From Flavobacteriales bacterium CG_4_10_14_0_2_um_filter_35_18 (GTDB taxonomy: Bacteria; Bacteroidota; Bacteroidia; Flavobacteriales; Flavobacteriaceae), in assembly GCA_002793215.1 (NCBI GenBank), contig PFPU01000183.1:1-53094 (forward strand): DNA of 53,094 nt. The letters are read 5' to 3'. The translations under genes and the position numbers were made by a program. A model generated the notes under the pieces. The model did no database searches and was not told the origin of the DNA. It saw nothing but the letters and a program-made list of their open reading frames with translations. This document shows positions 8,718-22,996 of the stretch, in pieces; position 1 is the first letter of the stretch, and each line of letters begins with the position of its first letter.

Positions 8718-9332
8718 TTAGCAGCCACCTCCGGTTTTTTTCTTTTTAGTTTTAGTAAACTGGATGGTCTTTTTTTTGGTTTCTATATTAATTTGAGTTC
8801 CGTTTGCAGGTTTCACTTTTGCCATAAAACTAGCATAGTCTCGGTCTGGTTTTTCTAGTTGAAAGTCAGAAACAATCAATTTATTTTGAGAATCATAAGC
8901 TAATGATGCGCATAAAATTTTTACATTTTTGTAACCAAGTTGTGTTAAAAATAACCAAGCACCATTGGCTTGATTAGGATCGGAGCCAAATAGAACAATT
9001 ATTTTATTACGTTTTGTAAAATCTTCTAGTTGTTCTTTAGCATTTTTATCTAACAGATTGGGGGTATAAATGTTTATGGCATTTGCCAATGAGCCACGAT
9101 CGAATTCGTGTGAAGCCCTTAAATCGACTAAAGCCAAATCTGATTTTAATGAATCTAAAGCCGATTTGTTTATTATAAAATCTTGTTTTTCAATAGGTGT
9201 AATTGGCAGGTTTTTGTCTTTATTAAAAACATTTACAGGTTTTTTAAAACTCAAAACGCCTATAATTATCAATAAGATAAAAATTATTGCCGAAATGGAT
9301 ATATTTTGTGTTCTTTCTAATTCTTTTTTCAT
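8718..9332 (-). CDS. Membrane-anchored rhodanese-like protein with degenerate active site and C-terminal GGGC
   Basis: A 204-residue protein with a membrane helix at about residues 12-29 after a basic N-terminus, predicting a periplasmic domain. Residues 50-160 form a rhodanese fold: LALVDLRASHEFDRGSL matches the substrate-domain start, and IIVLFGSDPNQANGAW occupies the active-site loop. The catalytic Cys expected there is Gly116, so classical sulfurtransferase chemistry through that loop is unlikely. The protein ends in a basic stretch and TGGGC, giving Cys204 at the extreme terminus; one other Cys (141) exists. It is the last gene of the minus-strand operon, 16 bases after the stop of a paralogue with almost the same tail. 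Inference: persulfide carrier using a flexible C-terminal thiol. Confidence 0.8.
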   Translation of the reverse strand: MKKELERTQNISISAIIFILLIIIGVLSFKKPVNVFNKDKNLPITPIEKQDFIINKSALDSLKSDLALVDLRASHEFDRGSLANAINIYTPNLLDKNAKEQLEDFTKRNKIIVLFGSDPNQANGAWLFLTQLGYKNVKILCASLAYDSQNKLIVSDFQLEKPDRDYASFMAKVKPANGTQINIETKKKTIQFTKTKKKKTGGGC

Positions 9333-9348
9333 AACAGTAAAAGTTTAA

Positions 9349-10011
9349 TTAGCAACCACCACCTGTAGTTTTCTTTTTTGTTTTTGTTAGTATAATTTTT
9401 TTGGGAGCTATGTTTGGTGTAGCAGCATTTGAGTTTAAAGTATTAACCGCACCGATACCAAAAAACATGGCCGCGGCTTTTCTGGTGTTGTATTTTTGAA
9501 ATTCTAGCTCAGAGTCTGAAGTTTTGGGCATCTCAGGGTTTAAAATGGTATTAAACCATGCATTTAAGCCTCCTTTTAAAACAAAAATATTGTTATATCC
9601 AAAGCGTTTAGCTATTAACCAAGCTTGGTCTGCAAAAAAGTTATCATTAGAATAAAAAATAACTTTATACCCATCTTGATCTAAATAAGTTTCATTATCA
9701 GGTTTTAAAATAGTTGATAATGGAATATTAGTTGCATTAGGCAATGAAAAATCACTGTATTCTTTAGCCGATCGGACATCAATTAATAAAATAGAGGGGT
9801 CTTTAGATATAAGGCTATTTGCTAAAAAGTCAGTGCTAATATAGCGTTCAGGGCTCATTAGGTTTAACAAAAATGTTTCAGGTTTAATTCCTACATTTTT
9901 TTGATATTTTGGAAGCAGAACCAATCCGCCAGATAAAATAATTAAAATGGCTGCAAGAATTCGATACCTTCTGCGAATGATAATCTTTTTATATTTATAG
10001 GTTTTAGACAT
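9349..10011 (-). CDS. Membrane-anchored rhodanese-like protein whose only Cys is the C-terminal residue (GGGC)
   Basis: A 220-residue protein: strongly basic N-terminus, membrane helix at about 17-34, then a periplasmic rhodanese domain (ILLIDVRSAKEYSDFSLPNA around 74-93, FGYNNIFVLKGGLNAW around 138-152). The active-site loop reads VIFYSNDNFF with Ser121 in place of the nucleophilic Cys. The sole Cys is residue 220, preceded by a basic run and three glycines. The last 12 residues differ from those of the downstream paralogue at one position, although the rest is poorly similar, which suggests selection on the tail. It lies 11 bases from the YeeE-like gene upstream. Role proposed: sulfane-sulfur acceptor or donor for the Mo enzyme or the transporters; not proven. 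Confidence 0.82.
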   Translation of the reverse strand: MSKTYKYKKIIIRRRYRILAAILIILSGGLVLLPKYQKNVGIKPETFLLNLMSPERYISTDFLANSLISKDPSILLIDVRSAKEYSDFSLPNATNIPLSTILKPDNETYLDQDGYKVIFYSNDNFFADQAWLIAKRFGYNNIFVLKGGLNAWFNTILNPEMPKTSDSELEFQKYNTRKAAAMFFGIGAVNTLNSNAATPNIAPKKIILTKTKKKTTGGGC

Positions 10012-10022
10012 AATCTTAAATT

Positions 10023-10613
10023 TTAATAGAATATTTTTTTAACTTTTTTTCTAACTAAATCTGAAATTACAAAGGCAATAATAGCCACTAAAGAAAACAA
10101 AAAGATAAACCAATAGGGAGAGATGCCTAAGGTATCTACCAAAGTGATTGCGCCATAATTGGAACCATCAAATAATGGTTGGATAAAAGAGAAAAATTCA
10201 GAGAAAATAAATACACCGATCAAAATGCCAACGCCATAAGCCATTGCATCAATTTTACCAATGGCAACTGCGCATAAGCTGGTTCCGGGGCAAAAGCCGC
10301 CTAAAATAAAACCTAAACCCATCACAATACCACCTACAATGGCTGCCCATAAATAGGTTGGATGTATGTATAATTTAGAAATATCAATAAAGCCCAAATA
10401 ATCTAAGTAATAAATGCCGATTACAGCTACAACAGCAGCCGTGAAAAACACTTTTAATACAACAAAATCATAGCCATAAAATACACCAGCAAGTTTTCTT
10501 GATGATGAAAATCCTGAGGCTTCTAGCACATATCCAAATATGATACCTATTAGTAAAGCAATAACAAAATCCCATTCTGGAGGAATTATACCGTTCGGAA
10601 TTAAAGGTCCCAT
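10023..10613 (-). CDS. YeeE/YedE-family (DUF395) membrane protein, half-size unit 2
   Basis: A 196-residue integral membrane protein of the YeeE/YedE sulfur-transport family (thiosulfate or sulfane-sulfur uptake, for example TsuA). About five hydrophobic segments are visible. The family signature GGFCPGTSLCAVAIGKIDA around residues 106-124 contains Cys108 and Cys114; in characterised members such membrane-embedded cysteines relay sulfur. An N-terminal FGYVLEASGFSSSRKLAG matches the other conserved loop. It is half the length of fused YeeE proteins (about 350-400) and lies 18 bases after a second half-size gene, so the two probably form one transporter, like PmpA/PmpB-type pairs. Direction of transport is unknown. 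Confidence 0.83.
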   Translation of the reverse strand: MGPLIPNGIIPPEWDFVIALLIGIIFGYVLEASGFSSSRKLAGVFYGYDFVVLKVFFTAAVVAVIGIYYLDYLGFIDISKLYIHPTYLWAAIVGGIVMGLGFILGGFCPGTSLCAVAIGKIDAMAYGVGILIGVFIFSEFFSFIQPLFDGSNYGAITLVDTLGISPYWFIFLFSLVAIIAFVISDLVRKKVKKIFY

Positions 10614-10631: not shown

Positions 10632-11159
10632 TTAAATCCAATTTTTTCTAAAGAAATAAGCAAATGCATAAGCGCTTCCAAATATGGCGAGCATTGTAAC
10701 AAAACCACCAGTTGATAAAACAGCCATTCCACTTAATGCGGCGCCACTTGTGCAACCCCTTGCTAGTTGAGCGCCAAAACCAAAAAACAAGCCTCCTAAT
10801 AGGGCTACGAATAATCGTTTTTTTGATGTTATATTGGGGGCATGCTGAATATATAATTTTAATCTACCACCTAGTGCTCCTGATAAAAATCCGCCTATTA
10901 AAACGCCAAGCGTTTCAAATACTAACCAAGTATTTAAAGGAGATTTTCCATTAATGATAAATTGTTCGTAATAGGCGTTTTTTGAAGCATGTGTGGGAGC
11001 TACATCATCAACAAATGTAACAACAGTGCTTTTAAATGCGCCACTTGCTCCTAATCCACGGCCGGTAATATAAAATGTGAAAATTAAAAGCAGTCCTAGC
11101 ATAAAGCCGCCAAAATAGGGGTTCCAATACACGTGTTTATTTTTAACTTTATTTTCCAT
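10632..11159 (-). CDS. YeeE/YedE-family (DUF395) membrane protein, half-size unit 1
   Basis: A 175-residue membrane protein with about four hydrophobic segments. FYITGRGLGASGAF near residues 29-42 and ARGCTSGAALSGMAVLS near 133-149 are YeeE/YedE signatures; Cys136 is the only Cys. A roughly 40-residue loop between segments 1 and 2 (about 45-75) is more polar than in its partner. It precedes the second YeeE-like gene by 18 bases and follows the NrfD-like gene by 12, within one operon. Inference: together with its partner it moves a sulfur species across the inner membrane, coupled to the Mo enzyme and the rhodanese homologues. Confidence 0.83.
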   Translation of the reverse strand: MENKVKNKHVYWNPYFGGFMLGLLLIFTFYITGRGLGASGAFKSTVVTFVDDVAPTHASKNAYYEQFIINGKSPLNTWLVFETLGVLIGGFLSGALGGRLKLYIQHAPNITSKKRLFVALLGGLFFGFGAQLARGCTSGAALSGMAVLSTGGFVTMLAIFGSAYAFAYFFRKNWI

Positions 11160-11171
11160 GTTCTGAGTTTT

Positions 11172-12113
11172 TTAATATAAATATCTTGTCAATTGTCCGG
11201 CATTTATCATCACAATTCTAAAAATGAGGCCTCCCATTAAAACTAAAAGGCTCGGAATAATAATTGGCACTTTAAAGCCTATTAATTCGGTTAATTCTAA
11301 TACAGCTGGAATTAGTAAGCCTAAAATAATGACAAACACAAAAAACATAACTGTATAATCACCACTTACCAATATTTGCATAGCCTCAAGCTGAACTTGC
11401 GATCCGGCATACATTCCCATTAACATATGGGTTATTAAAAATAGTTCAATAAATATAAGAGCTAAATCAATTTTGCTCATTATTTTTCTCTCAAAATGAC
11501 TCTTAGAAAACAGCAATATTGATGCAGCGCCAGTAGATAATCCGGATGTTAAAAATAAGGGACCCAAAATGGCGTTGTTCCAAAGGGGTCTTGCATTAAA
11601 AGCAGAAAGTAAAATACCAGTATATACACCTAATATTATTGATAAAGGAATTAAAGCGATAGCCATTAATTTTCTGTTCTTAATTAAAAAAGATTGAAAG
11701 TTTTTTAGCCAACTAAATTTTAAATTTAAACTTGGAAATATTTCGGTTGAATAACTTAATACCCATAAAATAGACAAGGGGGTTATTAAGAGTAATACCC
11801 ATGCGCCCCAAGACATAGGTGATGTTATTCTCACTGTGGTATATAACCTCCAAAAATAAAGTTTATGACTTAAATCTATGAACAATGTGCCTAGCCCAAT
11901 AATTAAAGCTAAGGGGGCGATTATGGTTGCCGTTTTAATGGTTGCTTTCATATCATTTTCTTTTCCCAATAAATAGAAAAGCGCTGCAAAAAATAGGATG
12001 CCGGCCGAGAGTCCGCCTAAAAAAAGATAGGTGGATATTTGCCAATGCCAGATTTCTAAAAAAGGGTCTATTTTTGGTAAATGCCTGCCACTGATGAAAA
12101 TTTCTTCTTGCAT
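11172..12113 (-). CDS. psrC: NrfD/PsrC-family membrane subunit of Mo-oxidoreductase
   Basis: A 313-residue protein with eight or so hydrophobic helices, matching NrfD/PsrC, the quinone-interacting membrane anchor of complex-iron-sulfur molybdoenzymes. The N-terminal IWHWQISTYLFLGGLSAG is the conserved first helix of the family, and GTLFIDLSHKLYFWRLYTT contains the polar residues usually near the quinone site. It carries no haem or Fe-S motif. It lies directly downstream of the Fe-S subunit (10-base gap) and upstream of the YeeE-type genes. Role: electron exchange between menaquinone and the four-cluster protein; whether the complex reduces or oxidises its sulfur substrate cannot be read from sequence. 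Confidence 0.87.
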   Translation of the reverse strand: MQEEIFISGRHLPKIDPFLEIWHWQISTYLFLGGLSAGILFFAALFYLLGKENDMKATIKTATIIAPLALIIGLGTLFIDLSHKLYFWRLYTTVRITSPMSWGAWVLLLITPLSILWVLSYSTEIFPSLNLKFSWLKNFQSFLIKNRKLMAIALIPLSIILGVYTGILLSAFNARPLWNNAILGPLFLTSGLSTGAASILLFSKSHFERKIMSKIDLALIFIELFLITHMLMGMYAGSQVQLEAMQILVSGDYTVMFFVFVIILGLLIPAVLELTELIGFKVPIIIPSLLVLMGGLIFRIVMINAGQLTRYLY

Positions 12114-12123
12114 AATAATTGAT

Positions 12124-12660
12124 TTATTTTATTAGATAATAAATATTTGGACTTGTACCTGCTTCTGGTGCCAGCACTTTATATTTTCTTTCTTTTAAAA
12201 GGTTAGAAACTTGACTATTAGGGTCGTCTAAATCGCCAAAACACATACATTTAGTAGGGCATACTGAAACACAAGCTGGTAGTTCACCTTTCTCAATTCT
12301 GTGATGACAAAAAGTACATTTATCAACATATCCATCAGGATGTTGGTATCTAGCATCATAAGGGCAAGATTCTATACAAGCGCCACAACCAATACATTCA
12401 TCTGCTGTTACAAGCACAATTCCGCCTTCTACAATATGGCTTGCACCAGTTGGGCAACAACGCACACAGGGTGCATTATTGCAATGATTGCAACGTTCTG
12501 ATTTTAATTCTATATCAACTTTTGGATAGGAACCATCTACGGTTTCTGTAATCCAATCTCTACAGTACCCAATAGGTACGTTATTTTCTGTTTGACAAGC
12601 AACTACACAATCACTACATCCAACACATTTCAATGTGTCTATTACCATTGCATACCTCAT
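12124..12660 (-). CDS. psrB: Four-cluster 4Fe-4S electron-transfer subunit (PsrB/PhsB/TtrB type)
   Basis: A 178-residue ferredoxin-like subunit with four Cys clusters: CVGCSDCVVACQ (about residues 12-23), CNHCNNAPCVRCCPTGA, CIGCGACIESCPYDA, and CTFC...CVSVCPTKC. This arrangement is that of DmsB/PsrB-type subunits, which wire the Mo subunit to the membrane anchor. No signal peptide is seen, as usual for subunits co-exported with a TAT-bearing partner. It lies four bases after the catalytic subunit gene and ten before the NrfD-like gene. Normal family length, no missing ligands noticed. Confidence 0.92.
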   Translation of the reverse strand: MRYAMVIDTLKCVGCSDCVVACQTENNVPIGYCRDWITETVDGSYPKVDIELKSERCNHCNNAPCVRCCPTGASHIVEGGIVLVTADECIGCGACIESCPYDARYQHPDGYVDKCTFCHHRIEKGELPACVSVCPTKCMCFGDLDDPNSQVSNLLKERKYKVLAPEAGTSPNIYYLIK

Positions 12661-12664
12661 AGTT

Positions 12665-14896
12665 CTAATTTTTATGTGGATCTTCGGTTAATATTTTTAC
12701 AAAATTTCCTCGTAATCCGGTACCACCCATAAGTGGGTCGACTGCTACATTAGAAATCATTTGGGTATCACTAATGCCCTTTCCGTAAGCTCTTGATAAT
12801 TTTTTATCATTATGACCAAAACCGTGATACATATATACAGAATCCCATCCAATTCTTTCGGTTACTCTCACTTTTATTGAAAAAGTTGATAAGATTCCAT
12901 CTTGATTTTCAAGCCATACTTCTTGTTCGTTTTTTATGCCAATTATATTGGCAATCTTAGGATTAACCCAAAGTTTATTTTCTGATTTTAAAGCATTTAA
13001 ATAGGGGTTGTTAATGGTACGGCTAAAGGTATGCATTGGCGAACGTCCATAGTTTAATCTAAAATAACCTTGAGGTGGTTCGGGATGTAATTTATAAATA
13101 GGCATAGGGTCAAAACCTTTAGAGGCTAAATCATCAGAATAAAATTCTATTTTGCCACTAGGAGTATCGAATTTGTATTCATCTCCATCTGCAATATAAA
13201 GTGGTGTTTGCCTATCAAATTTTTTGACACCCACTTGTATCATTTCTTCTAGTGAAGTACCTAATTTTTCTAATTGCCATTTTATAACCTCTTCATAATC
13301 ATTATAATTATAATAATCTTGTAGGTTTAAACGCATACCCAGTTCTTTGCTAATCCACCAAGCTGGTTTGCTGTTGTATTTTGGTTGAACTATAGGTTGT
13401 CGCAAAGCAATGGATGGTTCTCTAAAAGTTGCTGACCTAATACCATCATATCGTTCTAAATAGGTACATTCGGGTAATATAACATCAGCATACCCCGTAA
13501 TTTCCATCGGCATGGTATCTATTACAGCAATAAATTCTAATGAATCAATAGCCTTGATAATTTCTTCTCTTTGAGGAACGGTATTTATTAAATTTGTACC
13601 TGCTACAATCCAGGCTTTTATAGGAAATTCATTCTCTTTATTTGGAATACTTGCTTTTATTAATTCAGAAGTTATTCCCATTTCGGCATAGGGATATTTT
13701 CTACCTAATGCTTCCCAGCCCCATTTTGGTTTTGGATAATCGGGATGTGGAAATTTTGGTAGTGAAACGCTTTCATTCAAATAAAATCCACCTCGTTTGC
13801 CCCAAGACCCCAAAAGACCATTAAGTATGGCAATGGCACGTTCTCTTTGAGAATCATCACCATACCAAACCACATGGCGTCCCGGATGAACAATAACCGC
13901 TGGTGCGGCATTTGCCATTATTCTAGCTGTTTTTCTTATCTCTTCGGGTTTAATAGTTGTAATGCCATAGGCCCATTCAGGGGTAAATTCTTTAACGTGT
14001 TCTTTTAATTTATCAAAACCAAATGTGTATTTTTCAATATAATCTTTATTGTATAAATTTTCATTAATAATAACATTCATCCAAGCTAATAATAAGGCGA
14101 TATCCGTTCCGGGTTTAATAGCTAACCAATGTTTTGATTTGCTGGCGGCTGTTGATAAACGTGGATCTACAGTAATTATAGTAGCCCCATTATCAATGGC
14201 GTCAGACATTTCCTGAACTTGAGAATTATGCATATTTTCGCCAATATGAGAACCTATTAAAACTAAACATTTGGTATCTCTAATATCGGTTGGTTCAGGT
14301 GACCCAATCCAAGCACCAAAAGTTAGCGCAAAACCTGTTTCTCTTGGTCCACGACATTGTGCATAAGCTGGTTCGGCAATGGTATCAGAGCCATAAGCTT
14401 TAAACAAATGTTCTAAGTGGCTTCCCGGTGAGCCATGTTTAAATAACGCAAAACTTTCTGCACCATATTTTTCTTTTACGGTTTTCATTTTAGAAGCGAT
14501 TAAATCTAATGCTTCTTGCCAAGTAGCCTCTCTATAAGTTTGTTCGCCATTTACCGTTGTTCTTATTAAGGGTGTTTTTAAACGGTCTTCATCGTTAAGC
14601 ATTCCTACTCCGCCAGTACCCCTAGGGCAAAGACGACCATTGCAATGTGGGTCGATATCGTTTCCTATTAATTTAATAATTTCACCATTATCATTACTAT
14701 AAGCCCATTCGGCACATTTCCAAAAGCAAACTTCACAATATGTAGCTGTTCTTTTTAAGCGTTTAGCCGTTTTTTTTTGAACGAAATCGCCCATAAATGT
14801 ATTAGCACCAAATACCTTTAACACCGAAGTTGAAGCAGCTACACCACCTAACCCTAAGGCAGAAATTTTAATAAATGTTCTTCTTGATGTAGTCAT
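12665..14896 (-). CDS. psrA: Molybdopterin oxidoreductase catalytic subunit, polysulfide/thiosulfate reductase-like
   Basis: A 743-residue DMSO-reductase-family enzyme. The N-terminus TTSRRTFIKISALGLGG is a twin-arginine signal, so the complex acts in the periplasm. A [4Fe-4S] motif CEVCFWKC...CPRG follows at about 54-92. Cys181 in YAQCRGPRE is the likely Mo ligand, as in PsrA/PhsA and arsenate-type enzymes rather than Ser (DmsA) or Asp (NarG). Length fits PsrA/PhsA (about 750) and not TtrA (about 1000). Substrate is inferred from neighbours (YeeE/YedE, rhodanese homologues): polysulfide, thiosulfate or sulfite, in either direction. First gene of the operon; a CRP/FNR-like palindrome lies 56 bases upstream. 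No molybdenum-cofactor genes are in the window. Confidence 0.85.
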   Translation of the reverse strand: MTTSRRTFIKISALGLGGVAASTSVLKVFGANTFMGDFVQKKTAKRLKRTATYCEVCFWKCAEWAYSNDNGEIIKLIGNDIDPHCNGRLCPRGTGGVGMLNDEDRLKTPLIRTTVNGEQTYREATWQEALDLIASKMKTVKEKYGAESFALFKHGSPGSHLEHLFKAYGSDTIAEPAYAQCRGPRETGFALTFGAWIGSPEPTDIRDTKCLVLIGSHIGENMHNSQVQEMSDAIDNGATIITVDPRLSTAASKSKHWLAIKPGTDIALLLAWMNVIINENLYNKDYIEKYTFGFDKLKEHVKEFTPEWAYGITTIKPEEIRKTARIMANAAPAVIVHPGRHVVWYGDDSQRERAIAILNGLLGSWGKRGGFYLNESVSLPKFPHPDYPKPKWGWEALGRKYPYAEMGITSELIKASIPNKENEFPIKAWIVAGTNLINTVPQREEIIKAIDSLEFIAVIDTMPMEITGYADVILPECTYLERYDGIRSATFREPSIALRQPIVQPKYNSKPAWWISKELGMRLNLQDYYNYNDYEEVIKWQLEKLGTSLEEMIQVGVKKFDRQTPLYIADGDEYKFDTPSGKIEFYSDDLASKGFDPMPIYKLHPEPPQGYFRLNYGRSPMHTFSRTINNPYLNALKSENKLWVNPKIANIIGIKNEQEVWLENQDGILSTFSIKVRVTERIGWDSVYMYHGFGHNDKKLSRAYGKGISDTQMISNVAVDPLMGGTGLRGNFVKILTEDPHKN

Positions 14897-15110: not shown

Positions 15111-17000
15111 ATGAAAAAAAATTTATTAATTGTTTTAGCTTTTTTATTCACAATATTTATTGTGAGTTTCTACGTTTTTAAGGTAATTTTCTTTTCGGAT
15201 GAAACTTCTAAATATCAAAATAATTATAAAAATTTAAGTGATATAAGTAAAGAATCTTGTTTGCAATGTCATACAAATACAACTGGTTTTTCAGTTTATC
15301 ATAACCCTGAATCAATTGGTTGTATAAGTTGCCATTTAGGCAATGGAAAATCATTCAACAAAGTTGAAGCTCACACCAATATGGTAGTGATTCCCGGAAA
15401 TTTAATTGATGCCGAAAAAACTTGTGGCAAATGTCATGCAAGCGAATTATCCAAAATAAAAAATTCAATAATGACCACCAATAGTGGAATCATTGCAGTT
15501 GATAAATATATTTTTGGCGAAGCGGTTTCACCTAATAATCAATACCATATAAATGCCCTAAAAAATTCACCATCTGATAAACATATTAGAGATTTATGCG
15601 CCAATTGTCATCTGGGTTCAAAAAAAGATACTTTAGGACCAATAACCGAATTGAGTAGAGGCGGTGGCTGCAATGCCTGTCATTTAAATTATAGCATTGA
15701 AGCTCAAAAAGCACTAAGTGTTTATTTAAATTCCTCCAAAACCAAACTGCCAAAAATACATCCTTCAACAAGTGTTCTTATTAATGATACTCATTGTTTT
15801 GGTTGTCATAGTCGTTCTAGTCGCATTTCTACTAATTATCAAGGTTGGAGTGAAACCCTGCTCGATTCTAAAGTGGCCATTCAAAACAAAAAATACCGAA
15901 TTATAGATGATACGCGTGTGTATCGTTATATTAAAGAAGATGTGCATCATGCTAAAGGGATGCTTTGCATAGATTGCCATTCGTCGCAGGAAGTGATGGG
16001 AGATGGCAACAAATATCTTCATGAAGAAGATGCCGTAAAGATACAATGCTCCGATTGCCATTTTAAAAATCAACCCAAAACAATTGCTTATGATTCTTTA
16101 GATGCCGAAAGCATAAATGTGTTTTTACATAGAAATTATAAACATTTTAAAAAACCAATCATTGCTGTAAAAAATGGTGGACATCCCTTAGTAAATACCT
16201 ATATTGATACTTTAGGCAATGCTTTTTTGATTGGTAAAAAAGATGGAGCGCTACATAAAATACCCCCTCAATCTTCAATTTGTGCTCGTGATAATGTTCA
16301 TAAAGCAGTAAGTTGTTCAAGTTGTCATTCATCATGGACTTCAAGATGTATTGGTTGTCACACACAATTTGATAAAAATGAAACAAAAGCATTTGATTTA
16401 TTGGATAAAAAATTTGTAAAAGGTCAATGGAAAGAATATGCCGGTGAGTTTGATGCTTCTCTACCAGCATTGGGGGTCAAGTATTTTAGATCTAAAAAAC
16501 AGATAATGCCTGCAATACCTGGGATGATATTATCTATTGACCTCGGCAGTTTTAATGTAAATAGAGATTCATCTATTTTATTTCATAGAATTTATGCACC
16601 AAATTCGCCACATACAACTGTTAAAAAAGCGCGTGATTGTAAATCCTGTCATTCAAACCCTTTAGCATTGGGGTATGGAAATGGCAATTTGCGGTATGAA
16701 ATAAAAAAGGGCTTGGGTAATTGGAAATTTAACGCCGAATATGTTCCAAATAAATACGACCAAATTCCTGAAGACGCTTGGATTTCTTTTTTAGAGCATA
16801 CAAATTCAACAAAAATTTATTCAACGCGAACTGATTTCAGACCTTTTACACTAGAAGAACAAAAAAAACTATTACTGGTGGGTACTTGTTTAGAATGTCA
16901 TCTAGAAACTTCTAAAATTATGCAACAAAGTTTGTCAAAAGGGTTAAAACCACTGTTAAAAAAAACGAGTAATAAATGCATTTTACCAACTTGGCATTAA
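15111..17000 (+). CDS. Membrane-anchored dodecahaem c-type cytochrome
   Basis: A 629-residue protein with an N-terminal membrane helix (about residues 4-28) and twelve CXXCH haem-binding motifs. In order the XX pairs are LQ, IS, GK, AN, NA, FG, ID, SD, SS, IG, KS and LE. The spacing is irregular, with clusters of motifs in residues 50-240 and 285-320 and an isolated last motif near the C-terminus. I do not recognise a named family; the N-terminal half recalls multihaem cytochromes of the hydroxylamine-oxidoreductase/octahaem class, but no catalytic Lys or Tyr crosslink site can be assigned. It is divergent from the psr operon and shares its promoter region, so it is likely a periplasmic electron conduit or terminal reductase for the same pathway. 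Confidence 0.88.
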   Translation: MKKNLLIVLAFLFTIFIVSFYVFKVIFFSDETSKYQNNYKNLSDISKESCLQCHTNTTGFSVYHNPESIGCISCHLGNGKSFNKVEAHTNMVVIPGNLIDAEKTCGKCHASELSKIKNSIMTTNSGIIAVDKYIFGEAVSPNNQYHINALKNSPSDKHIRDLCANCHLGSKKDTLGPITELSRGGGCNACHLNYSIEAQKALSVYLNSSKTKLPKIHPSTSVLINDTHCFGCHSRSSRISTNYQGWSETLLDSKVAIQNKKYRIIDDTRVYRYIKEDVHHAKGMLCIDCHSSQEVMGDGNKYLHEEDAVKIQCSDCHFKNQPKTIAYDSLDAESINVFLHRNYKHFKKPIIAVKNGGHPLVNTYIDTLGNAFLIGKKDGALHKIPPQSSICARDNVHKAVSCSSCHSSWTSRCIGCHTQFDKNETKAFDLLDKKFVKGQWKEYAGEFDASLPALGVKYFRSKKQIMPAIPGMILSIDLGSFNVNRDSSILFHRIYAPNSPHTTVKKARDCKSCHSNPLALGYGNGNLRYEIKKGLGNWKFNAEYVPNKYDQIPEDAWISFLEHTNSTKIYSTRTDFRPFTLEEQKKLLLVGTCLECHLETSKIMQQSLSKGLKPLLKKTSNKCILPTWH

Positions 17001-17872: not shown

Positions 17873-17897
17873 CAGGTTTTTAAAACCTGTTAGGTTT
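17865..17897. terminator. Perfect palindrome between convergent genes, bidirectional terminator or dispersed palindromic repeat
   Basis: Arms AAACCTAACAGGTTTT (17865-17880) and AAAACCTGTTAGGTTT (17882-17897) are perfect 16-bp inverted repeats around a single T. The element overlaps the stop codons of both yhhN and xdhC. Flanking T or A tracts are short, so termination could work both ways. The AACCTAACAGGTT sequence resembles palindromes that recur between genes in Flavobacteria (recollection, not checked). Confidence 0.7.
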
Positions 17898-18834
17898 AGT
17901 TAGTATTTTTAATTTTAATTAATTGTGCAGCAACACTTATAGCAATTTCTTCGGGCGTTTCGCTTTTTATAAATAAGCCTAATGGAGCGTAAACTTTTGC
18001 TAAAAGGTCATCGGTAAAACCTTCACTTTTTAAAACTTCGAATAGCACATTTAGTTTAGATTTACTGCCCATCACACCAAGGAATTTAAAATTTTTATTT
18101 AACAGTGGTGCTAATGCAATTTTATCATCTTTATATCCGTGAGTCATAATGGTAACATAAACAGCAGCTCCTTCTTCTATATAATCGGCTATTTTTTTAT
18201 AATCTATAATGTGTTTTTCAACGCTTAGTGGTAGCGCCTCAAAAGTGTTTAACCCCAGTCTATTATCAAATAAAATGACTTCAAAACCTATTTGCTGACA
18301 CAAAATAGCCGTTGCTGCGCCAACATGGCCACCACCAATAACGTAAAGTTTTGGTTTTTTTTGAATGCGCTCACTGTAAATCCATTGCTTATCAGCCAAT
18401 TTTTTAAAAAAGAAAAGCTGATTTTGAAAGGTCTCTTTTTCGTAGTACAAACCTTTTTCAGTTAAAGAGAGCGTTCCCCTTTTATTGGACATTAATTTTT
18501 CAATTGTAGGCAAATGACTTCCGTTTAACGGAATAAAGGCCAGCGTTTGTTCGCCAGAGCAAATCATTCCGGAGCCTTCTAATTTTACGCCTCGGTGAAT
18601 TTGTCGTTTTAAAAAGACTTGCTCTTTATTTTGGGACAATTGATTTTTAGCTTCTTCAACCATAGCAAATTCCATAACACCCCCACCGATAGAGCCTTTT
18701 AAGTCGCCATTTGGCATGACCAACATTTTAAAACCTTGGCGTCCTGGCGAACTTCCCAAACTCTCAACTACTAACAATAACATCAAATTTTGATGTTTAT
18801 AAAGTTGTTCTTTTAAAGTGTTCCAAAAATTCAT
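17896..18834 (-). CDS. xdhC: XdhC/CoxI-family Mo-cofactor maturation protein
   Basis: A 312-residue XdhC-type protein. Residues 10-60 (VVESLGSSPGRQGFKMLV and GSIGGGVMEFAMVEEA) are the XdhC_CoxI domain; residues about 160-260 form a Rossmann-like domain with YVIGGGHVGAAT. In the family it binds molybdenum cofactor, helps its sulfuration and inserts it into xanthine-dehydrogenase-type enzymes. It is the last gene of the xdh operon and its start overlaps the stop of the membrane-protein gene by 4 bp. Context makes the assignment strong. The 3' end lies in the palindrome shared with yhhN. Confidence 0.9.
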   Translation of the reverse strand: MNFWNTLKEQLYKHQNLMLLLVVESLGSSPGRQGFKMLVMPNGDLKGSIGGGVMEFAMVEEAKNQLSQNKEQVFLKRQIHRGVKLEGSGMICSGEQTLAFIPLNGSHLPTIEKLMSNKRGTLSLTEKGLYYEKETFQNQLFFFKKLADKQWIYSERIQKKPKLYVIGGGHVGAATAILCQQIGFEVILFDNRLGLNTFEALPLSVEKHIIDYKKIADYIEEGAAVYVTIMTHGYKDDKIALAPLLNKNFKFLGVMGSKSKLNVLFEVLKSEGFTDDLLAKVYAPLGLFIKSETPEEIAISVAAQLIKIKNTN

Positions 18835-19322
18835 GAGCCAAATATAGTTTCACTTAGAGCGTAATAAATTGCCATTAAGGCAGAAAAAGTAGCACTGGCA
18901 ACAAAACGCCCATGCAGTTTAGTTTTAGTTTGGATGATAAAATTAGCAAAAAAAGAAATAGGAATGTTTACCGCAAACGATAAAAACGCAATGTTTAACA
19001 AATTCCATTGGATGTTTTCAATTTCGCCCGAAAATAATTTGATAAAAAATAGGTGGCGCGCAATCCAAAGGGGATTAAAATAGGCAATTGCCAAGCCTGT
19101 TTTGCTTAAAACATAGGCTAATCCCTTTAAATTTTTAGTTTTGGTTTCTATCCAATTAAAATAATTTGGTATTTCAAAGGCGTAAAATGTTGCGCCAATA
19201 AAAACCATTCCCAGCAAACGTGTCAAACTAAAATCATGCAGCATAAATGCCGCAATACTGTCGCCAATACTGTAAATAAGCGCGCCTTTTATAAGGTTGT
19301 TTTTCGAGTAAACTAAGGTCAA
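18831..19322 (-). CDS. Small membrane protein in xdh operon, possibly Mpv17/PMP22-like
   Basis: A 163-residue protein with about four hydrophobic segments (around residues 12-30, 35-50, 75-95 and 110-160). I do not recognise it with confidence. IKGALIYSIGDSIAAFML near the N-terminus and RLLGMVFIGATFYAFEIPNYFNWIE recall the GD-containing first helix and following segment of Mpv17/PMP22 proteins, but the match is distant. It overlaps both xdhB (4 bp at its start) and xdhC (4 bp at its end), so it is translationally coupled within the operon. A role in substrate passage or in membrane association of the dehydrogenase is possible but unsupported by sequence alone. Confidence 0.65.
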   Translation of the reverse strand: MTLVYSKNNLIKGALIYSIGDSIAAFMLHDFSLTRLLGMVFIGATFYAFEIPNYFNWIETKTKNLKGLAYVLSKTGLAIAYFNPLWIARHLFFIKLFSGEIENIQWNLLNIAFLSFAVNIPISFFANFIIQTKTKLHGRFVASATFSALMAIYYALSETIFGS

Positions 19323-21586
19323 CTGTTATTTTTAAATGCGTTATACAAATTTTTCAAAACCTTTTGGGGAGTCAGGGGCGCGTCAAATTTTAAGCAATAA
19401 TTTTTATTAAAGGCTTTTATGGCATTTTGAATGGCAAAATAAGTGCCGATACCATACATCAAAGGCGGCTCACCAACGGCTTTCGATTTTAATAAGGCCA
19501 TTTCATTTCCCTCAGATTCTAAGGCTTTAACCACAACTATTTTTGGCATTGCATAAACATCGGGCACTTTATAGGTTGAGAGCGCATTTGATAATAAGCG
19601 TCCATTTTTATCATAAACAAGTTCTTCTGAAGTCATCCAGCCAATGCCTTGGGCTAAAGCGCCTTCTACTTGTCCCATATCAATATCAAGATTCATACTT
19701 TTTCCAAAATCGTGTATAATTTTAACACTGTCAATTGCATAATTACCTCTCAAACAATCTACCGTAACCGTGCTTATGGCAGTTCCATAAACGTGATAAG
19801 CAAACGGCTGTCCCTTTTCCGCCGTTTTGTCAAAATTGATGATTGGTGTGACATAATAGGCTTGTTCAGTAAGGCTAATGCGCTTTAAAAAAGCAGTTTG
19901 GATTAGCGTTTCCCAAGCTATAGACTCCTTATTTTGTAGGTTATAAACGGCTTGATCTTTAAAGTAAATAGCTTTATCAGTCGTATTTAATTCCGCTTTA
20001 GCGATAACCGATAGTCGATTTTTTAGGGTGATACAGGCTATTTGCAAGGCTTTTCCGTTAAGGTCGGCAGTAGAGCTGGCAGCACTTGGCGAGGTATTTG
20101 CCACGCGCGTGGTATTGGTGGTTTCAACGAGAACTTTATTTAAAGACAAACCAAAAGTTTGCGCAACAATTTGCTTGAGTTTGGTATTGACACCTTGCCC
20201 CATTTCAATAGCGCCGGTGCTGAAACCAATGCTGCCATCTTGATATATGTGAACCAGCGCACTGGCTTGGTTCATGGGCGTATTGGTAAACGAAATACCA
20301 AAGCAAATTGGCATTACCGAAATTCCTTTTTTTAGGGCATCATTATGGGAATTGAATTGGGCAACTAATTTAACTTCCTTTTCAAAATCAAAATCTTTTA
20401 CGGCAGTTTGCCAGGTGTTTTTAGCCTCAACTTGTGTGGCAATTTGCCCATAGGAAAACGCATCATTTTCTTGTAATAAATTAGCTTCCTGAATTTTATA
20501 GGCTGGAATATTGAGCATTTCTGCCGCTTTGGCAATTGCCGATTCAATAACAAACATACCTTGTGGCCCACCAAACCCCCTAAAAGCTGTATTTGGTGGC
20601 AGATTGGTTTTGCAGGAAAGTACCTTAGTATAGACATTTTTTATAAAATAGGCATTGGTAGCATGAAATAAAGTTCGCTCGGCAATGGCAGGCGATAAAT
20701 CGGCGGCAGCACCCGCATTTTGTAAAAAGGTAGCTTCGAAAGCCTGAATTTTTAAATCTTTGGTCAAGCCGATTTTAAAGGTGCTTTCATAAGGATGGCG
20801 TTTGCCGGTCATACGCATATCGTCATGGCGGTTTAAGACTAATTTCACGGGTTTATGCAAGTGGTTTGTAGCCAATGCAACCAGCGCCGCCCAAGCCGAA
20901 GCTTGATCTTCTTTGCCGCCAAAGCCACCGCCAAGCCTGATAACATCCACTTCAATTTGATGCATACCTATTCCTAAAACTTTTGCAATGGCTTTTTGAA
21001 CTTGCGTTGGTCCTTGGGTTGAAGCGGTTACTTTTATTTTACTGTTTTCGCCACATTCGGCGTAAGCGCCTTGTGTTTCTAAATATAAATGCTCTTGACC
21101 GTTGCTAAAAGTATCCGCTTCAAAAATATAATCGCAGGTTTTAAAAGCATTAACCGTATTGCCCATTTTAAAAGAGCGTGGTGCACACACAAATTCATTT
21201 TTTTTAAAAGCCTCGGTAGCAGTTGTTATTACCGGCAAGGCTTCGGTTTTTAGGCTTATGAGTTGCCTTGCTTTTTTTGCAATGGCATCACTTTTAGCCA
21301 CAATAAAAGCAATGGGTTGCCCCCAATAATGAATGTCATTTTCAGCCAATAATGGTTCATCTTGAATGATGCCACCAATTTGATTTTGGCCAGGAATGTC
21401 TTGGTAGGTAAAAATTTTGACAACGCCGTCAATAGTTTCCGCTTTAGCGTAGTCTAATTCTAAAATTTTGGCATGGGCAAGTGGCGCATCAAATACCAAA
21501 CCAAAAAGGCATCCTTGTTGCGTATTTAAGTCGTCAATATAAAGCGATTCGCCTCTTAAATGACTGTATGAATCTGTATTTTTCAT
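19319..21586 (-). CDS. xdhB: Xanthine dehydrogenase-type molybdenum-binding subunit
   Basis: A 755-residue molybdopterin-cytosine-dinucleotide-type hydroxylase large subunit. Domain order is a small aldehyde-oxidase a/b hammerhead domain (GESLYIDDL, SHLRGES start) then the Mo-binding domain with IRLGGGFGGKEDQ (about residues 216-228), NTAFRGFGGPQ, SIGFSTGAIEMGQG and KAVGEPPLM near the C-terminus, which includes the catalytic Glu region (VGEPP). It hydroxylates purines or aldehydes, using water as oxygen source. It directly follows the Fe-S/FAD subunit without a gap. The exact substrate, xanthine or another N-heterocycle or aldehyde, is not certain; the three-gene set with xdhC favours xanthine dehydrogenase. 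Confidence 0.9.
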   Translation of the reverse strand: MKNTDSYSHLRGESLYIDDLNTQQGCLFGLVFDAPLAHAKILELDYAKAETIDGVVKIFTYQDIPGQNQIGGIIQDEPLLAENDIHYWGQPIAFIVAKSDAIAKKARQLISLKTEALPVITTATEAFKKNEFVCAPRSFKMGNTVNAFKTCDYIFEADTFSNGQEHLYLETQGAYAECGENSKIKVTASTQGPTQVQKAIAKVLGIGMHQIEVDVIRLGGGFGGKEDQASAWAALVALATNHLHKPVKLVLNRHDDMRMTGKRHPYESTFKIGLTKDLKIQAFEATFLQNAGAAADLSPAIAERTLFHATNAYFIKNVYTKVLSCKTNLPPNTAFRGFGGPQGMFVIESAIAKAAEMLNIPAYKIQEANLLQENDAFSYGQIATQVEAKNTWQTAVKDFDFEKEVKLVAQFNSHNDALKKGISVMPICFGISFTNTPMNQASALVHIYQDGSIGFSTGAIEMGQGVNTKLKQIVAQTFGLSLNKVLVETTNTTRVANTSPSAASSTADLNGKALQIACITLKNRLSVIAKAELNTTDKAIYFKDQAVYNLQNKESIAWETLIQTAFLKRISLTEQAYYVTPIINFDKTAEKGQPFAYHVYGTAISTVTVDCLRGNYAIDSVKIIHDFGKSMNLDIDMGQVEGALAQGIGWMTSEELVYDKNGRLLSNALSTYKVPDVYAMPKIVVVKALESEGNEMALLKSKAVGEPPLMYGIGTYFAIQNAIKAFNKNYCLKFDAPLTPQKVLKNLYNAFKNNS

Positions 21587-22996
21587 TTAACTGACGAGTT
21601 CTAAAATTTTAAAAGTCTTGGAAAATAATTTTAAAAAATGGGCATAAAAAAGCTGTCGCGCCAATAAACGTTTATAAGATTCATCACCACGAACATCGCT
21701 AATGGGCTGAATTTCATCTTGTAAAATTTGGGATGCTTCTTTTAAAATGGCAACGGATAATATTTTATTGCCTAAAAAGTTACAGGTATTTTTAGCGTAA
21801 AACGGAATTGGAGCTACACCACCAAAAGAAAGATGTGCAAATTGAATTTTATGTTGCACCACGCTGATTTGTAGCGCTGAATTAACACTGGCAATATCTA
21901 AATGTGTGCGCTTGCTCACCTTTTCAAAATTAAATTTGCAAGCTAATTTGGGAAGCTTAAAGGCTATATTTAAAAGGTGTTCTTGAGCATGTAAGTCCAA
22001 TTTTTTATAGCCTTTATAAAAGTCTTTTAGCATGAGTGTCCGCAAATAATTGTCGTCATTTTTAAGGGTAATTTCTGCATTTAAAGCTAAAAGAAATATA
22101 GTCATATCGCCAATGGGAGAAGCATTTACAATATTTCCGGCAAGGCTCGCCATATTTCGTATGGGTTCAGAAGATACCAATTTTAAATGGGCGTGAATTT
22201 CAGGGAAATAGGTTTTAAAAGTGGGGTTGTAAAATAAGTCGGATACCGTGGTGTTAGCACCCAAGGTACAGCGATTTTCGTCGAAAGTTAGTTCCATTTT
22301 TTGTTGCACTTGACTGATGAGGTGCACATCGGCATCGGCTAAATTATCGGCATAACGGACATACAAATCGGTGCCACCTGCCACTTTTATGCTATTTTTT
22401 AAGGCTATATTTGGTGTTTTAATTTGCTTTAAACGGTCAAGAATTGTCAAAAAATATTCAGGTAAAAATAAATGATTTATCAACCAATTCAAGCGGTTGT
22501 TTAAAGGGATTTGAGTTAATTCTTCAAAAATTTGATAGGCTGCTTTTTCAATGCTTTTATAGCCGGTACATCGGCAAATATTGCCACTTATGGCGGTAAT
22601 GGCATCTTGTTTCGACACCAAATGTTCTTGTAGGCTCAAGCCAACCAATGCCATCACAAAACCAGGTGTGCAAAAACCACATTGTGTGGCGTTATTGTTT
22701 TTTAACGCCGTTTGAATGGTGTTTAATTTGTTATTTAAATTGACGCCTTCGACAGTAACAATGTGTTTGCCGTGGGCGTTTCCCAAGGGCGAAATGCATG
22801 AAGTAATGCTTTTATAAATTAAGTGATTTTTTGAGTTTATTGTGCCTACTAAAACTGTACATGCCCCACAATCACCTTCGCGGCAACCAATTTTAGTCCC
22901 TTTGAGTTGCTGCTCACTTCGTATAAAATCAACGAGGGTGATGCCGGCATTAGCAGTTGTTTTTATCAGTTTGTTGTTTAAAACAAATTCAATCAT
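21587..22996 (-). CDS. xdhA: Xanthine dehydrogenase-type small subunit, 2x[2Fe-2S] plus FAD domains
   Basis: A 469-residue electron-transfer subunit. Residues 1-75 hold a plant-type [2Fe-2S] ferredoxin domain (GCREGDCGACTVLVG, Cys38, 43, 46), and about 95-145 the helical second cluster (QCGFCTPGFVMAL and GNICRCTGY). From about 195 an FAD-binding domain begins (IKVAGGTDLYVRY, LASLAGNIVNASPIGD), ending in the CO-dehydrogenase flavoprotein C-terminal domain. Electrons pass from the Mo centre through both clusters to FAD and NAD+. It lies six bases after the esterase lipoprotein gene and abuts xdhB. Length matches fused XdhA proteins; no ligand is missing. Confidence 0.92.
   Translation of the reverse strand: MIEFVLNNKLIKTTANAGITLVDFIRSEQQLKGTKIGCREGDCGACTVLVGTINSKNHLIYKSITSCISPLGNAHGKHIVTVEGVNLNNKLNTIQTALKNNNATQCGFCTPGFVMALVGLSLQEHLVSKQDAITAISGNICRCTGYKSIEKAAYQIFEELTQIPLNNRLNWLINHLFLPEYFLTILDRLKQIKTPNIALKNSIKVAGGTDLYVRYADNLADADVHLISQVQQKMELTFDENRCTLGANTTVSDLFYNPTFKTYFPEIHAHLKLVSSEPIRNMASLAGNIVNASPIGDMTIFLLALNAEITLKNDDNYLRTLMLKDFYKGYKKLDLHAQEHLLNIAFKLPKLACKFNFEKVSKRTHLDIASVNSALQISVVQHKIQFAHLSFGGVAPIPFYAKNTCNFLGNKILSVAILKEASQILQDEIQPISDVRGDESYKRLLARQLFYAHFLKLFSKTFKILELVS

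Follow-up and report, generated by a model that had tools for sequence, protein, structure and literature searches.

Why should two neighbouring rhodanese-like proteins that lack the catalytic cysteine of their fold both end in nearly the same lysine-rich stretch, with a cysteine as the very last residue? The question is raised by a window of 53,094 nucleotides, the whole stretch of DNA analysed here, which is contig 25 of a 203-contig genome (2.5 Mb, 90% complete) of a member of the Flavobacteriales. Both proteins, which we call RhoA (9349..10011, minus strand, 220 aa) and RhoB (8718..9332, minus strand, 204 aa), close an operon-like run of minus-strand genes. The run begins with a molybdopterin oxidoreductase (12665..14896), for which PhsA is the best NCBIfam model; since its 478 bits miss the curated cut-off of 694, we refer to this molybdenum enzyme as PhsA/PsrA-like only. 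Its N-terminus is twin-arginine-like by eye (SRRTFIK), and its match to Pfam TAT_signal lies under the cut-off. A 4Fe-4S electron-transfer subunit (12124..12660; Pfam Fer4_11, under the cut-off of every NCBIfam model among the matches listed, 25 of 56) and an NrfD-type membrane subunit (11172..12113; Pfam NrfD, 1.6e-48) follow. Next come the two halves of a YeeE/YedE protein, a PmpA-like C-terminal half (10632..11159, Pfam Sulf_transp profile positions 176-308 of 310) and a PmpB-like N-terminal half (10023..10613, positions 8-156 of 310). An ExtM-like multihaem cytochrome c (15111..17000, plus strand; 234 bits against an NCBIfam ExtM cut-off of 800) is encoded divergently from the operon, which is also adjoined by genes for an XdhC-family protein and a molybdenum enzyme of the xanthine/aldehyde oxidase type (17896-22996). 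A search of the same genome for double rhodaneses yielded weak matches only, while two matches in PLSDB plasmids were both confined to the YeeE part of the query.

The initial annotation, made from the letters of the window, described RhoA and RhoB as tandem rhodanese homologues, diverged outside their tails, which had lost the loop cysteine, and suggested that they are anchored on the periplasmic side of the membrane. The description holds up, and the suggested location is probable. Both reading frames end in GGGC directly before a TAA stop codon (TKKKTTGGGC in RhoA, TKKKKTGGGC in RhoB), and the two proteins are about 30% identical overall. Pfam Rhodanese (PF00581) matches both above its cut-off (7.8e-16 for RhoA, 1.8e-12 for RhoB), which assigns them to the rhodanese fold, and a Foldseek search with RhoA likewise returned rhodanese domains (target TM 0.81 for 3gk5), as did a sequence search. 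No NCBIfam model reached its cut-off for either protein. The AlphaFold model of RhoA (48 sequences, pLDDT 84) consists of a helix at residues 3-31 (9919..10005) and a rhodanese domain, in which Ser121 (9649..9651) comes immediately after strand 116-120, the usual place of the catalytic cysteine in rhodaneses. In the model of RhoB (pLDDT 88), Gly116 (8985..8987) occupies the corresponding position after strand 111-115, and an N-terminal helix spans residues 2-28 (9249..9329). Neither protein thus has the loop cysteine of an active sulfurtransferase. Cys220 is indeed the only cysteine in RhoA, as had been read from the translation, and RhoB has a second one in the motif VKILC. The C-terminal arms are modelled without secondary structure: in RhoA (residues 194-220, 9352..9432) the blocks past residue 190 have mean pLDDT values of 49-61, with residues 189-197 and 218-220 below 50, while RhoB is coil past residue 173 (blocks at 61-74; arm at residues 180-204, 8721..8795). 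The alignment behind the RhoB model was chosen by start position and left out two tail-less homologues (L081 and L104), so that its invariant GGC is no evidence of conservation.

We take both N-terminal helices as transmembrane. Of 109 RhoA-type proteins, 87 have more lysine and arginine ahead of the helix than behind it and nine show the reverse; for RhoB, the corresponding numbers are 38 and 10 of 81. This excess on the N-terminal side suggests that the rhodanese domain faces outwards, more firmly for RhoA, whose domain probably lies outside the membrane. Tailed lipoproteins in two other loci (L031 and L218, lipobox identified by eye) agree with such a location.

Is the tail a peculiarity of one genome? 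We collected homologues from several samples. Among 149 genomes belonging to the same family, 14 contain a homologue, the source genome included. A scan of named genomes contributed its 80 top-ranking loci out of 202, every one from Bacteroidota, with Lutibacter and other Flavobacteriaceae as top RhoA matches. A phylum scan of 395 genomes found 62 matches in 58 genomes, 30 of which entered the set as loci and 31 were added later, the remaining one being the RhoB of genome G032 that was already contained in L030. Distinct proteins were typed by profile, identical reading frames were counted once and one truncated RhoB was excluded. The resulting RhoA-type set comprises 145 distinct homologues from one phylum, 114 closer and 31 more distant ones.

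Across the loci of this phylum, 143 of the 145 RhoA-type proteins terminate in GC, or in GGC with no more than one further residue. All 114 closer homologues have the GC end (96 GGC, 17 GC after another residue and one GGCG). Among the 31 weaker ones, 29 have a GC end or a GGC end extended by a single G, S, A or T; the other two, a 140-aa fragment (L191) and a protein ending in FQC (L174), were scored as misses. Complete RhoB homologues end in GGC in 81 of 84 cases. The tail is absent from RhoB in L028, L081 and L104 and from a RhoB-like protein in L219; in L028, however, where RhoB itself is tail-less, a double-rhodanese lipoprotein encoded downstream ends in QEGGC. None of 1447 non-rhodanese reading frames from the loci (150 aa or longer, many of them mutually orthologous) ends in GC or GGC plus zero to two residues, and we therefore reject chance as the origin of the tails. 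At the DNA level, the pattern KK-x3-GGC-stop occurs twice in the source genome, at RhoA and RhoB (reversed control: none), and ten times in 16 genomes, nine of them at RhoA or RhoB (reversed control: five). An artefact of the search profile can also be dismissed, since 48 of the 62 phylum-scan matches stop before profile position 214 and since a profile without the tail still retrieved tailed proteins in 13 of 15 cases. This latter search covered 395 genomes of the class, eight of which had a match; four of the 15 matches were the already known proteins of the source genome and of G032, and the two untailed ones were a RhoB-like protein (G846) and a protein with an intact loop (G512). Recoding of the stop codon was rejected as well, because TAA, TAG and TGA each occur behind the tail. 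The observation of GGGC tails is thus confirmed and extends further than first stated. Sequences and models support the view that the design, a rhodanese fold devoid of the loop cysteine and equipped with an anchor and a basic, cysteine-ended arm, is conserved in a phylum.

Loss of the loop cysteine is almost as widespread as the tail. In the 114 closer RhoA-type proteins the loop residue is serine (98), glycine (8), alanine (6) or cysteine (2), and with none in the 31 more distant ones, a loop cysteine is found in 2 of 145 overall. RhoB homologues have glycine (76), serine (4), asparagine (3) or alanine (1) and never cysteine (0/84). The idea that the thiol had moved from the loop to the arm is nevertheless too simple: the two RhoA-type proteins with a loop cysteine, in L129 and L135, also have the tail, and further tailed proteins with an intact loop occur in L028, L031 and L218. 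Loop cysteine and arm are hence separate features, able to coexist. Another 80 rhodanese-like reading frames in the loci are, according to a motif search, mostly double-domain proteins with the loop cysteine; 75 of them lack the tail (72 complete and three truncated), while five end in GGC, GGCG or GCD. In a tree of the rhodanese domains, which rests on few columns and includes 17 duplicates (L218-L223) among its 100 rows, a branch with support 95/86 sets off a group of 68 rows that contains nearly all RhoA and RhoB sequences, whereas three tailed proteins, L028_3008, L031_5693 and L218_5642, are placed on another. On this basis, the tail seems to be present on at least two lineages.

The genomic neighbourhood offers hints on a function. 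The N-terminal YeeE half is encoded directly upstream of RhoA or fused to it in 135 of the 138 loci with enough sequence. Of the three exceptions, L153 and L168 have the half in the locus beyond the limits of our script and L142 is without it. Real fusions of the N-terminal half and RhoA are found in 26 of 141 distinct loci. The C-terminal half lies upstream in 123 of 126 loci; L169 has it elsewhere in the locus, while L102 and L142 are without it. Each half contributes one conserved cysteine (Cys108 of the N-terminal half in 139/139 aligned sequences, Cys136 of the C-terminal half in 134/135), as is typical of a split YeeE of the PmpAB or YedE1E2 type. A passage of the SoxT study aligns the cysteines of such short halves with the two cysteines indispensable in TsuA of S. 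thermophila (PMC11582611). The molybdenum enzyme (MopB), the NrfD subunit and the Fe-S subunit occur together in 85 of the 93 loci whose upstream sequence reaches 5.2 kb or more, whereas six have a large multihaem cytochrome in place of MopB, and these six are all of the fused loci in this set. Neither enzyme was found upstream in the remaining two, L102 and L161. Comparing these counts, YeeE is the most constant neighbour, though not an obligatory one. As to the co-occurrence of loop-cysteine loss, tail and psr/YeeE genes proposed as a check of the original idea, tail, loop-cysteine loss and YeeE go together nearly always, while the reductase varies and one genome has the tails and no YeeE (see below).

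We also noticed a second type of operon without the molybdenum enzyme (L148, L156, L158 and L159), composed of genes for a cytochrome with eight CxxCH motifs, a membrane protein, the C-terminal YeeE half and a fusion of the N-terminal half with the rhodanese protein. In L148 the order is cytochrome, cytochrome b561-like gene, C-terminal half and fusion, and the cytochromes of L148 and L156 match Pfam Cytochrome_cB. In loci of the closer homologues, double rhodaneses are encoded downstream in 43 of 71 cases and a porin in 39 of 71; of the 62 such loci with at least 8 kb upstream, 58 contain a gene related to that for the ExtM-like cytochrome.

What, then, might the arm be for? We lean towards the reading that RhoA and RhoB are pseudo-rhodanese carriers, whose terminal cysteine would carry sulfane sulfur between the sulfur chemistry of the periplasm and, in genomes that have it, YeeE. 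The N-terminal helix anchors the rhodanese-fold domain, which would serve as a docking body. The terminal cysteine would take on sulfane sulfur as a persulfide, or as an S-sulfonate from thiosulfate, and the loaded cysteine would ride on the arm as it does with the GGCGG arm of SoxY. On the periplasmic side, candidate partners are the Phs-like molybdenum reductase, the multihaem cytochrome or the double rhodaneses with a loop cysteine. Where YeeE is present, the arm would meet the mouth of the split protein, guided by its basic patch to one site common to RhoA and RhoB, and the two conserved YeeE cysteines may relay the sulfur. Split YedE1E2 is described in PMC10812762 as an importer of zero-valent sulfur, and PMC11582611 calls passage of sulfur from the cysteine of SoxY along the channel cysteines of SoxT conceivable, although the same source doubts hopping from cysteine to cysteine within SoxT, as the channel cysteines are about 7 Å apart. 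From the arm design of SoxY, the uptake by YedE1E2 and the relay idea for SoxT, we infer sulfane sulfur to be the cargo of RhoA and RhoB. In favour of such a role counts the terminal cysteine in glycine context itself (114/114 and 29/31 RhoA-type proteins, 81/84 RhoB), as do the scarcity of the loop cysteine, the YeeE half beside or fused to RhoA, the cysteine conserved in each YeeE half, the tails matched within loci and the GGCG and GGCGG ends in L031 and L218. Several observations count against it: an arm in a genome devoid of YeeE (G438), tailed proteins that have kept the loop cysteine (L129, L135, L028, L031, L218), RhoB or RhoB-like proteins without the tail (L028, L081, L104; L219) and, should it have this operon, the growth of Lutibacter profundi, which thiosulfate did not stimulate (PMC5219744).

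The genome without YeeE deserves a closer look. In L142 (7-7265), from the 99% complete genome G438, the genes for RhoA, RhoB, NrfD, the Fe-S subunit, MopB and a cytochrome lie in a row, and both tails end in VKKVKVEVEEGGC. The whole genome gave no match to the N-terminal YeeE half or to Pfam Sulf_transp; double rhodaneses are encoded on a separate contig (frames of 350 and 352 aa with two matches each). Since the tails are kept here, YeeE is not the sole partner, and the genome, a natural experiment on the arm's other partner, points to exchange with the reductase side as a separate function. It also makes it more likely that the arm serves the reductase alone, delivering sulfur from polysulfide or thiosulfate to the Phs-like active site, while YeeE, though encoded in that operon, would be an independent importer. 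Sud and SbdP are rhodanese-type proteins that supply sulfur reductases, and the frequency of the three reductase genes upstream (85/93) fits such an explanation. On the other hand, the six fused loci with 5.2 kb upstream exchange the molybdenum enzyme for a multihaem cytochrome while YeeE stays, the fusion partner of RhoA is YeeE, and L161 and L102 have the N-terminal YeeE half where the reductase was not found upstream. We thus regard service to the reductase alone as rather unlikely, though it is the alternative that fares best.

A further observation concerns the tails as such, which behave like modules and resemble each other within a locus. In the window, the tails (IILTKTKKKTTGGGC and IQFTKTKKKKTGGGC) differ in some codons at synonymous sites, as originally pointed out, and share other codons. 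RhoA and RhoB agree in all of their last nine residues in 50 of 81 loci, compared to 4.3% between loci; within these 50 loci, 146 of 450 sites show different codons, with no difference at all in three loci. In 36 loci the tail of RhoA is nearer to that of its own RhoB than to the RhoB tail of the nearest genome; the opposite applies to 8 loci, and 37 are ties. At identical tail residues, 33% of the codons differ within loci and 45% between them, so gene conversion or a shared codon bias may contribute, and part of the matching between RhoA and RhoB may come from these sources. In L031 (5693-8449), three neighbouring proteins, a double-rhodanese lipoprotein, a single-rhodanese lipoprotein and a membrane-anchored RhoA, have an identical 16-residue end (KPIVKHKKKEVTGGCG, terminating in GGCG). 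In L218 (4400-9703), a gene for a 410-aa YeeE-type protein heads a series on one strand. It continues with two rhodanese lipoproteins that end in GGGCGG and SGGCGG, one with a loop cysteine and one with a loop serine, and then with a double rhodanese, a porin and a further rhodanese protein.

Such basic tails, repeated on two or three proteins per locus and matched within genomes, could also be docking or sorting tags, or structural disulfide hooks to a partner or between RhoA and RhoB, that carry no sulfur at all. A pure tag, however, would not need to retain the cysteine. Ends such as GGCG, GGCS, GGCA, GGCT and GGCGG preserve the Gly-Cys and not its place as last residue, just as in SoxY, and the usual neighbours are sulfur-handling proteins. 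We consider this explanation improbable.

Two other roles are weaker still. RhoA and RhoB might be sensors whose terminal cysteine signals periplasmic sulfane sulfur via YeeE to a regulator, comparable to SoxT1B for SoxR; a Crp-type regulator lies in one scanned neighbourhood (L020) and SoxT1B appears as a YeeE-type signal unit in PMC11582611, but since the gene runs of 91 of 93 loci include a reductase or a multihaem cytochrome, a sensory role is very improbable. In prenylated eukaryotic GTPases a polybasic stretch likewise precedes the modified cysteine. Lipidation of the lysine-preceded terminal cysteine was nevertheless rejected as its main role and is the least credible of all, as RhoA and RhoB already have an anchor helix, the tailed proteins of L031 and L218 an N-terminal lipobox, and some tails residues beyond the cysteine.

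Returning to sulfane-sulfur carriage, a more far-reaching version can be formulated: these proteins would constitute a widespread and undescribed group of membrane-bound pseudo-rhodaneses, which hand sulfur by a swinging-arm thiol directly to split YeeE, from protein to channel, with the arms of RhoA and RhoB co-evolving towards one docking site and a GGC(GG) end that arose independently of SoxY. We consider this version conceivable, yet in its entirety doubtful. If true, it would mean that the rhodanese fold works on after the loss of its catalytic cysteine and has acquired a SoxY-like arm by convergence. For YeeE members of the SoxT type, the species carried and its presentation from the outside are left open in PMC11582611, and RhoA-type proteins are candidate carriers for that task. 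The fusions with a YeeE half render the carrier idea testable with a single protein. A rhodanese domain encoded beside YeeE and ending in GC could furthermore serve as a signature for sulfur carriers that stay under every NCBIfam cut-off.

How do RhoA and RhoB relate to known systems? A description of a family of rhodaneses with a C-terminal cysteine arm was not found in titles and abstract openings of the open-licence PMC literature, in agreement with the initial annotation, which had named no such family. With single-domain rhodaneses (PspE, GlpE, PDB 3gk5) they have the fold and the Pfam domain in common, but those keep the catalytic cysteine, which is replaced by serine, glycine or alanine in nearly all RhoA and RhoB types. 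DsrC and TusE, the analogue proposed at first, use a cysteine in the terminal region of a C-terminal arm for sulfur transfer; they are cytoplasmic proteins of a different fold. RhoA and RhoB resemble them in having a C-terminal arm with such a cysteine, but are rhodanese-fold proteins, probably located outside, and a DsrC domain is absent from them in Pfam and NCBIfam. The downstream double rhodaneses and porins recall ExtH and ExtI of Geobacter, a rhodanese lipoprotein and an outer-membrane protein (PMC6148476), but these double rhodaneses mostly retain the loop cysteine and are tail-less. In the pairing of YeeE with YeeD (TsuA-TsuB) and in natural YeeED fusions, a sulfur-handling protein with an essential cysteine is joined to YeeE according to PMC11073785, just as RhoA is adjacent to or fused with YeeE; YeeD, however, is TusA-like (PMC11582611) and cytoplasmic, whereas RhoA has a rhodanese fold, lies probably on the outer side and is fused to the N-terminal half. 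Hden_0679, described in a passage of PMC11582611 as a periplasmic DsbA-like protein encoded beside SoxT1A with a cysteine motif at its very C-terminus, also combines a YeeE-type neighbour with a C-terminal cysteine, but is thioredoxin-like with a CxxC motif. A closer analogue than DsrC/TusE is SoxY, in which the cysteine of the C-terminal GGCGG binds the sulfur substrate (PMC6067878). Like SoxY, RhoA and RhoB would be periplasmic carriers with a cysteine in glycine context on a flexible C-terminal arm. The window proteins end in GGGC, but GGCGG itself is carried by two rhodanese lipoproteins from a single genome (L218), which makes SoxY the better comparison. Pfam matches Rhodanese only, and no SoxY domain, in RhoA, RhoB and these two lipoproteins. 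The initial interpretation is thus partly supported, being right in outline, with YeeE as the usual neighbour and SoxY as the analogue. Judged by their domains, RhoA and RhoB are members of neither the SoxY nor the DsrC family: in contrast to the SoxY fold, theirs is that of rhodaneses, they are held by a membrane anchor or occur as lipoproteins, and their arm is basic and mostly has GGC or EGC at its very end.
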